Assembly (NCBI GenBank): GCA_027492735.1
Contig: JAPUEE010000018.1
Location: forward strand, 1-56,028
Direction of reading: 5' to 3'
DNA length: 56,028 nucleotides
Source: Candidatus Saccharimonadota bacterium
GTDB taxonomy: Bacteria; Patescibacteriota; Saccharimonadia; Saccharimonadales; Saccharimonadaceae
How positions within the stretch are numbered: position 1 is the first letter of the stretch; the number at the start of each line of letters is the position of its first letter. Below the pieces are notes generated by a model. That model did not search any database. It had not been told where the DNA came from and saw only the letters and a program-made list of their open reading frames with translations. Positions 29,950-33,082 of this stretch are shown here, in pieces. The translations under genes were made by a program, and so were the position numbers.

Positions 29950-31227
29950 CTATTTATCGCTTGGCAGAGGGAACTTGCGCGCGAATGTAATGACCTGGTC
30001 GTGGATTTCGGATAATTTTGCTGTATCATCGCGATGCTCAATTGCCGCTAACATCCATTCAGCAATCTGATCCATGTCAGACTCGACGAGACCGCGCGTT
30101 GTCATAGCTGGTGTACCGAGACGCAAACCACTCGGTCGGAATGGCGGTTCCGAGTCGTTTGGAATAGCATTTTTGTTAGCAGTCAAACCAATATCATCGA
30201 GAGCCTTTTCAACAATACCGCCGTGCACGCCGAAGCTAGACTTTACATCGGCAAGAATGAGATGGTTATCAGTTCCACCGGTAATAAGTTTGAACCCACG
30301 TTTTTTCATAGACTCAGCAAGAGTGCTCGCATTTTTTACCACCTGGGCCGCATAGGTTCGGAACTCAGGCTGAAGTGCTTCGTGGAACGATACCGCTTTG
30401 GCTGCGATAACATGCATGAGCGGTCCACCTTGGGTTCCAGGAAAAACGCTACGATCGATCAAAGTTGGAATATTTTTGAGAGTGATCTCTGGCTTCTTTA
30501 GTGGATTGCCGACTGTACCCTTCGACAAAATCAAGCCTCCACGTGGACCACGCAACGTTTTATGGGTGGTCGTGGTGATAACATGAAAACCGAAATCAAA
30601 GGGGTTCGGGTGCGACCCGCCAGCGATCAATCCAGCCACATGAGCCATATCTGCCATCAGCAATGCACCGACCTTTTTGCCAATGCTTGCAAATCGTGCA
30701 AAATCAGGAATACGCGAGTACGCACTATAGCCAACGAGAATAATTTTTGGTTTATGTTTGAGTGCCAACTCCTCTAGCTCATCATAGTCAATTTCGCCAG
30801 TTTCGACATCTTTCATACCGTAGCGAATAAAATTATATACCTTTGCGCTCTGCGTTACTGGAGCACCGTGCGTGAGGTGACCGCCGTGACCCAGATCCAT
30901 GCCGAGCACTGTGTCACCCGGCTCGAGCCACGCATTATAGACCGCATTGTTTGCCTGCGCACCAGAATGTGGCTGCACATTCGCATGATCAGCGCCAAAT
31001 AGTTGTTTAGCGCGCTCAATCGCGAGAGCCTCGACTTGGTCAGTAAATTCTTGGCCACCATAGTAGCGACGACCAGGATATCCTTCACTGTATTTATTTG
31101 TGAATATACTACCCATGGCGTCTAATACTTCGCGGCTCACATAGTTCTCACTCGGAATCAGCTCTAATCCATCGCGCTGTCGCTCAGTTTCGCCCATAAT
31201 TAAATCGAATATCTCTTTGTCTTGCAT
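29950..31227 (-). CDS. glyA: Serine hydroxymethyltransferase (GlyA)
   Basis: A 425-residue PLP enzyme of normal length. PSENYVS, GRRYYGG, the PLP lysine segment [14 protein letters not shown] and [12 protein letters not shown] are intact. It converts serine and tetrahydrofolate to glycine and methylene-tetrahydrofolate. A CofE-type ligase in the window (33937) could polyglutamylate its cofactor. It has a leadered promoter (TATACT, 31252-31257) and a strong AAGGAGG before ATG. Confidence 0.97.
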
Positions 31228-31251: not shown

Positions 31252-31257
31252 AGTATA
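31252..31257 (-). promoter_or_regulatory. -10 box of glyA
   Basis: TATACT on the minus strand gives a leader of about 18 bases that contains AAGGAGG. Confidence 0.45.
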
Positions 31258-31295
31258 CTACTTTATCGTCGAAATGAGAAAAGGTTGTGGTTTTT

Positions 31296-31311
31296 ATATC
31301 AAATATGATAT
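31296..31311. promoter_or_regulatory. Operator-like palindrome over the HTH-murA promoter
   Basis: ATATCA (31296-31301), AATA, TGATAT (31306-31311): a perfect 6-4-6 inverted repeat. Its right arm overlaps the -10 box TATAAT (31309-31314), and the box ends nine bases before ATG. A half-site (TGATAT) recurs at 31321-31325. It is well placed for autorepression by the encoded XRE domain. Confidence 0.6.
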
Positions 31312-31323
31312 AATTGCTATGAT

Positions 31324-32856
31324 ATGAAAGAAGATTATCGAGAAAAAATTGGTAAGTTAGTCGCTGAATTACGCGCCAGCCACGGCTTAACCCAAGCAGA
31401 ACTAGCAGAGCGATTAGCCACGAGTCAATCAGCTATCAACCGTATCGAGCGCGGTGGACAAAATATCAGCCTCGAAACTATTGCGCGCATCTCCGATGTT
31501 TTGAACGCAGAAATTCTATCAGTTAATGACGAGAGTAAACTCAATCTACGAGTCCACGGCGGTCACACATTACACGGCGAAATAGAGACGAAAACCAGCA
31601 AAAATGCTGCTGTTGCCCTGCTTTGCGCCAGTCTTCTTAACAAGGGCAAAACTATTTTGCAGCGCGTCGCCCGTATCGAAGAAGTTAACCGTATTTTGGA
31701 AGTTTTGAATTCGATCGGTGTTAAAACGCGTTGGCTCAACGAACAGAACGACCTCGAAATTATCCGTCCCAAAGTGTTGAAACTAGACGATATGGATATC
31801 GAAGCCGCCAAACGTACGCGTACAATCATTATGTTTCTCGGTCCATTGTTGCACCAGTACAAAAGTTTCCGATTACCTTTTTCGGGTGGCTGCAACCTAG
31901 GAAAACGCACTGTTGAGCCACATTTGGTCGGACTGCGTGAATTCGGCATGAGTGTTGAAGCCCAAGACGGCACCGATTACTACCAAGTTGATGTCAAGCC
32001 ACGCGAACCGAGCGGTCCGATTATTTTGACTGAACGCGGTGACACAACAACCGAGAATATTTTGATGACTGCTGCCATGAACGAAGGTGAAACTATCATC
32101 AGAAACGCCAGCCCGAACTACATGGTTCAGGACGTCTGCTTTTTCCTGCAAAAACTCGGCGTTAAAATTGATGGCATCGGCACAACGATTCTACGCATTC
32201 GTGGTGTCAAAAATATCAATAAAACTGTTGAATACGCCGTCAGCGAAGACCCAATCGAAGCCATGAGCTTTATCGCAGCTGGCGCCATCACCCATTCGGA
32301 AATTACCGTCAAACGCGCACCGATCGAATTTTTGGAACTCGAAATGGCAACTCTCGGAGAAATGGGGCTCAATTACGAACTTGGGCCGGAATATCGTTCG
32401 CATAATGGCGAAACACGCCTCGTCGATATCACAATAAAGAAATCGCAGCTCCATGCCGCAAAAGACAAACTACATGCCTTGCCATTTCCCGGTATCAACC
32501 AGGATAACTTGCCCTTTATGGGGTTAATCGCTACTGCAGCCGAAGGCCGAACGTTGGTTCACGATTGGGCCTATGAAAATCGCGCTATCTATTTTACCGA
32601 GCTCAGCAAGCTCAATGCTCGTGTCGAAATGGTCGATCCACATCGAGTGTACATCACCGGTCCAACACGCTGGAAACCAGCTGATGTTGTCGCTCCACCT
32701 GCATTACGTCCGAGCGTCGTGGTATTGCTCGCTATGCTAGCCGCACCAGGAACGAGTGTTCTGCGCGATGTCTACAACATCAATCGTGGCTATGAGGATT
32801 TCTACCAGCGCCTCAACAGCCTCGGCGCCAAAGTCGAAACCTGGCGCGAGATTTAA
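31324..32856 (+). CDS. murA: XRE helix-turn-helix fused to MurA (UDP-GlcNAc enolpyruvyl transferase)
   Basis: A 510-residue fusion. Residues about 5-65 form an XRE/Cro-type HTH (LTQAELAERLATSQSAINRIERG). Residues about 75-510 form the EPSP-synthase-like MurA domain. The catalytic-loop Cys is kept in SGGCNLGKR (canonical GGCAIGARP), and SKNAAVAL matches the family's N-terminal Lys-Asn motif. MurA commits UDP-GlcNAc to peptidoglycan. Linking a DNA-binding domain to it, with a palindrome over its own promoter, suggests substrate-tuned autoregulation. The enzyme assignment is firm; regulation is inference. Confidence 0.92.
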   Translation: MKEDYREKIGKLVAELRASHGLTQAELAERLATSQSAINRIERGGQNISLETIARISDVLNAEILSVNDESKLNLRVHGGHTLHGEIETKTSKNAAVALLCASLLNKGKTILQRVARIEEVNRILEVLNSIGVKTRWLNEQNDLEIIRPKVLKLDDMDIEAAKRTRTIIMFLGPLLHQYKSFRLPFSGGCNLGKRTVEPHLVGLREFGMSVEAQDGTDYYQVDVKPREPSGPIILTERGDTTTENILMTAAMNEGETIIRNASPNYMVQDVCFFLQKLGVKIDGIGTTILRIRGVKNINKTVEYAVSEDPIEAMSFIAAGAITHSEITVKRAPIEFLELEMATLGEMGLNYELGPEYRSHNGETRLVDITIKKSQLHAAKDKLHALPFPGINQDNLPFMGLIATAAEGRTLVHDWAYENRAIYFTELSKLNARVEMVDPHRVYITGPTRWKPADVVAPPALRPSVVVLLAMLAAPGTSVLRDVYNINRGYEDFYQRLNSLGAKVETWREI

Positions 32857-32863
32857 CACAAAA

Positions 32864-32888
32864 AAACCGCTTCTACTCGAAGCGGTTT
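32864..32888. terminator. Bidirectional terminator between HTH-murA and tRNA-His
   Basis: AAACCGCTTC and GAAGCGGTTT form a perfect ten-base stem around a five-base loop. T-runs on the minus strand (seven T) end the tRNA-His transcript; the plus side has a weaker T tract. Confidence 0.85.
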
Positions 32889-32896
32889 GATAATTT

Positions 32897-32975
32897 TGGG
32901 GCGAATGATGGGACTCGAACCCACGACCTCCGGAGCCACAATCCAGCGCTCTAACCAAACTGAGCTACAATCGCC
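32897..32975 (-). tRNA. tRNA-His (GUG)
   Basis: A 79-base tRNA with encoded CCA and anticodon GTG. An encoded extra 5' G (position -1, 32975) faces discriminator C73, the histidine identity pair. The acceptor stem has one U-U opposition (positions 5-68). Confidence 0.95.
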
Positions 32976-33082
32976 ATATTGCCTACACTAGGCCGTGCTA
33001 TTTTAGCATACTTTATCAGATACACTAAATACTATATCCGGCATAAACCTAGCGTAGGCAGTTAAACCACACTCGTTAGATG

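Follow-up and report, generated by a model that had tools for sequence, protein, structure and literature searches.

In saccharibacteria, which live attached to other bacteria, the sole MurA, the enzyme for the first step of cell-wall synthesis, carries a DNA-binding domain, and a matching DNA site lies on its own promoter in nearly every relative, even in actinobacteria that acquired the gene. The best explanation is that this is a bifunctional MurA that represses its own gene, to which we assign a probability of about 0.76. The gene was found in the window, a stretch of 56,028 nucleotides of a Candidatus Saccharimonadota genome (here called G000). A preliminary description of the sequence had reported an XRE domain fused to an apparently active MurA, with a perfect palindrome overlapping the -10 box, and we confirmed that observation. 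The parts of the locus are the following.

31252 to 31280, minus strand: promoter-like site (TTCTCA-17-TATACT) of the divergent glyA-like gene (29950-31227), separate from the dyad.
31295 to 31312, no strand assigned: putative operator, the 18-bp dyad TATATC-N6-GATATA, which contains the perfect ATATCA-N4-TGATAT at 31296-31311.
31309 to 31314, plus strand: -10-like element TATAAT of the murA promoter, overlapping the right half-site.
31324 to 32856, plus strand: HTH-MurA fusion gene, 510 aa, the sole MurA of the genome.
31351 to 31509, plus strand: XRE/Cro-C1 helix-turn-helix domain, residues 10-62.
31426 to 31449, plus strand: recognition helix, residues 35-42 (QSAINRIE).
31504 to 31539, plus strand: linker predicted to be flexible, residues 61-72.
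31543 to 32841, plus strand: MurA (UDP-GlcNAc enolpyruvyl transferase) domain, residues 74-506, with the loop Cys190 at 31891-31893.
32860 to 32980: terminator-like inverted repeat after murA, followed by what looks like a tRNA gene on the minus strand.

The fusion is encoded by one uninterrupted open reading frame. Pfam places HTH_3 at residues 14-61 (E 1e-13) and EPSP_synthase at residues 78-497 (E 3e-46), and NCBIfam assigns residues 74-506 to MurA (PRK09369, above its cut-off), whereas the aroA model is far weaker. The score with TIGR01072 (319.7 bits) is below the cut-off of that model (392.7), but the best hits in a Foldseek search are all MurA, with a TM score of 0.9 to solved MurA structures. 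The catalytic-loop cysteine is C190, equivalent to E. coli C115, and K22, N23, R91, R120, D231, D305, R331, R371 and R397 (E. coli numbering) are also kept. All active-site residues tested are invariant in 166 fused and 12 unfused sequences, except that the whole subfamily, with or without the HTH, lacks the equivalent of E. coli D369 (window residue 459); it also has Thr at the G164 position (around residue 242). The fusion is the only PF00275/TIGR01072 protein of the genome, so it is the MurA of the cell as far as the 97.5% complete assembly shows; that it supplies this step is an inference from the absence of another copy. The AlphaFold2 model (pLDDT 89) shows a four-helix HTH (helices 5-19, 24-30, 35-42 and 50-60), a linker with pLDDT below 50 at residues 66-70, and a MurA fold.

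The ATG follows 9 nt after the -10-like element, so the transcript is probably almost leaderless. A simple promoter scan did not confirm this -10 element and found no sigma-70 -35 hexamer for murA, but the aligned promoters show conservation of TATA(A)T at dyad positions 15-20. In the 817-kb genome, the exact palindrome occurs only here and once inside rpoC. Within the window, matches with up to two mismatches are no more frequent than chance, so the case rests on position and conservation and not on rarity. A chance palindrome can be rejected, given its conservation at a nearly fixed position in over 100 loci.

The fusion is not a one-off but is standard for the order. It is present in 58 of 60 sampled relatives of the family and order (in one draft only part of the gene is on the contig) and in nearly every order member of a second sample. 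Other orders of the class have a stand-alone MurA of about 30% identity, and elsewhere in the phylum the same MurA subfamily occurs both with and without the HTH, which provides a natural experiment. Within 100 nt upstream of 125 non-identical saccharibacterial fusions, a weight matrix found a TATAYC-N6-GRTATA dyad in 122, in most of them 8-13 nt before the start codon. The left half-site carries 1.65, 1.93, 1.93, 0.96, 1.0 and 0.94 bits per position, compared to at most 0.47 in the upstream flank, and its outer three bases are about as conserved as the -10 box. No known promoter element explains a second conserved hexamer a dozen bases upstream of the -10 box. With the consensus TATMTCA-N4-TGAKATA and up to two mismatches allowed, sites were found in 70% of the saccharibacterial fusions, 64% of those of other Patescibacteria and 89% of the actinobacterial ones, but in 0 of 13 relatives of the same subfamily that lack the HTH; Markov-shuffled controls gave 2.4% or less. 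One unfused member of the group (locus L212) has only degenerate sequence where the HTH would be, and the canonical MurAs of other Patescibacteria show nothing similar by eye in their upstream 70 nt. Some fused genes (L203, L209, L157 and L199) lack a recognizable dyad near the start, and among saccharibacterial sites left and right substitutions do not covary beyond expectation. Moreover, the sequences are related, so the counts are not independent: only three independent contrasts between fused and unfused genes lie on supported branches, too few for a test, and in these the dyad goes the same way or does not differ, never the opposite. The preliminary description had stated that its reading would fail if the palindrome were not conserved with the fusion, and the comparison came out in its favor.

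The other condition under which it would have failed, degenerate recognition residues in the orthologues, was not observed either. The recognition helix is the most conserved part of the HTH: residues 34-43 are 86% identical among saccharibacteria, compared to 63% for the whole HTH and 66% for MurA, and residues 34-37, 42, 44 and 47 are near-invariant. In one largely gut/rumen saccharibacterial lineage (within loci L140-L171) the left half-site has become TAT[TG]C[AG], and residue 39 of the recognition helix is His in 22 of these 24 loci, whereas it is Asn in all 83 loci with TATAYC. This fits coevolution of specificity, but the association is largely that of one clade.

Full-length fusions (58 to 63% identity over residues 1-510) also occur in Knoellia, Janibacter, Actinocatenispora, Streptomyces and Nonomuraea, and in 11 of 246 sampled genomes of the Actinobacteria, the query included. 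In the tree they form one clade (100/99) inside the clade of the window's own family (100/100), which itself lies among other fused Patescibacteria, so the direction of transfer is from Patescibacteria to Actinobacteria. The actinobacteria received the gene with its operator from saccharibacteria (loci L146, L157, L158, L162, L165, L166, L187, L188 and L190-L199). In GC-rich surroundings they keep the dyad, which changed on both arms together from TATATCA/TGATATA to TATCTCA-N4-TGAGATA, at the same 10-11 nt from the start codon in most. Loci L208 and L047 have TATAGC-N6-GCTATA and TATACC-N6-GGTATA, respectively. In Knoellia, Janibacter and a further genome (G403) the fusion is the only MurA, which implies that the enzyme works; the second PF00275 hit in Knoellia and Janibacter is AroA and not a canonical MurA. 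In genome G328 (C1:1261849-1263347, locus L199) the fusion is split between two frames although it is the only MurA found, and whether this is an assembly error or a real frameshift is not known. Streptomyces-like genomes have a canonical copy as well. The canonical MurA kept beside the fusion in a Micrococcales MAG and in Actinocatenispora (L176 and L177) has Asp in place of the loop Cys (GGDAIGSR), the type known for fosfomycin insensitivity, whereas the fused enzyme has Cys.

A search for the palindrome at other wall genes had also been proposed beforehand. The same site lies 10 nt before murB in one relative (genome G010, L226) and just before murB in another (G028, L263), but not in the other murB loci examined; murB of the window has no site and follows closely behind an upstream gene. 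The circuit thus appears mainly to be a private autoregulatory loop that in some lineages includes the next enzyme. The other sites in G000 lie inside rpoC, inside a short open reading frame upstream of thrS, and 9 nt before a uvrB-like gene. As they share no theme, we do not claim a large regulon. Sites like the operator are found near thrS and/or an nrdR-like gene in three genomes (G000, L225 on contig C22; G016, L230; G031, L258), possibly belonging to another regulator.

In the explanation we favor, the XRE domain binds, presumably as a dimer, the operator over the -10 box and blocks RNA polymerase, so that the amount of MurA, the committed step of peptidoglycan synthesis, is held steady by negative feedback, and the flexible linker lets the two domains act side by side. 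The analysis itself establishes the architecture, the intact active site, the position of the operator and its conservation together with the HTH, whereas binding, dimerization, repression rather than activation and any effect of a ligand are inferred, as neither DNA binding nor expression was measured. The interpretation in the preliminary description, an enzyme that senses its substrate and represses its own gene, is therefore supported only in part: autoregulation by the fused HTH is strongly supported by comparison, but for the sensing of UDP-GlcNAc or PEP there is no evidence either way.

A substrate-gated enzyme, in which closing of MurA upon binding of UDP-GlcNAc or PEP changes its affinity for DNA so that repression reports pathway flux, as in PutA or BirA, would be a refinement of this explanation and not an alternative to it, and we consider it only tentatively. 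MurA opens and closes on substrate, fusion of an enzyme to an HTH is the usual layout of such regulators and the active site is intact, but there is no sequence evidence for coupling, and the linker, predicted to be floppy and poorly conserved (residues 63-72 are 37% identical among saccharibacteria), argues for loose rather than tight coupling. It is possible, although we think it rather unlikely, that the flux at the committed step is read by the enzyme itself and fed back to its own promoter, and in some lineages to murB, by a circuit that was invented in Patescibacteria and passed whole, enzyme plus operator, to Actinobacteria, the phylum of known saccharibacterial hosts, where in some lineages it is now the only MurA.

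It is unlikely that the bound protein is instead an activator that helps RNA polymerase. No conserved -35 hexamer was seen in 122 aligned promoters, as in some activator-dependent promoters, but the dyad overlaps the -10 box itself, which is the position of a classical repressor site. Even less likely is that the dyad belongs to a different regulator and that the HTH serves for oligomerization or is a relic: there is a modest excess of similar sites elsewhere in the genomes of relatives, some in front of non-wall genes, but the dyad follows the fusion into another phylum, it has no close match in HTH-less relatives, and the recognition helix is conserved. The least likely possibility is that the palindrome consists of two back-to-back -10 boxes. 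TATATC read backwards is the -10-like GATATA and a divergent gene lies upstream, but that glyA-like gene has its own promoter-like site (one found, 0.7 expected), the spacing of the dyad is mostly constant, and the dyad persists in Actinobacteria with other upstream sequence.

As far as we know, described control of MurA in model bacteria is mostly by protein stability or binding partners, and transcriptional self-control by a built-in repressor would be a different solution. It would also be one of few regulatory circuits predicted with a defined operator in Patescibacteria, which have few regulators and are mostly uncultured, and it is testable in E. coli because enzyme and operator come as a pair. 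As MurA is the target of fosfomycin, a MurA inhibitor might also affect the regulator. The preliminary description knew of no such MurA, and we also found no HTH-fused or autoregulating MurA in the papers searched, which largely did not include subscription journals. A possible link to S. coelicolor MurA2 (SCO5998) was considered, but we saw no mention of an HTH in PMC8346170 and PMC12161575, and we leave this link undecided. The pairing of HTH_3 with EPSP_synthase has been counted in the Pfam database (PMC9394408), where HTH_3 is listed as a promiscuous domain associated with EPSPS, with no operator, no MurA assignment and no regulation.

Compared to canonical MurA (E. coli b3189, PDB 1uae), the protein has the same fold (TM 0.91) and the catalytic residues listed above, but it is only 30% identical, carries the extra N-terminal HTH and is changed at D369 and the G164 position, as is its whole subfamily. 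The HTH domain is most like that of HipB/Y4mF-type XRE antitoxins (TIGR03070, 47.6 bits, below its cut-off of 71.65), which usually repress their own operon; here it is fused to an enzyme, a toxin partner was neither looked for nor seen, and the E. coli HipB operator, TATCC-N8-GGATA, has wider spacing. PutA, BirA and NadR are enzymes with a DNA-binding domain that repress transcription. Ligand control is not shown for the fusion and no large regulon was seen, but as in those proteins a catalytic and a DNA-binding domain are joined in one polypeptide, with an operator at its own or its pathway's promoter, and what is different here is that the enzyme is MurA and that the HTH is of the XRE/Cro-C1 type.
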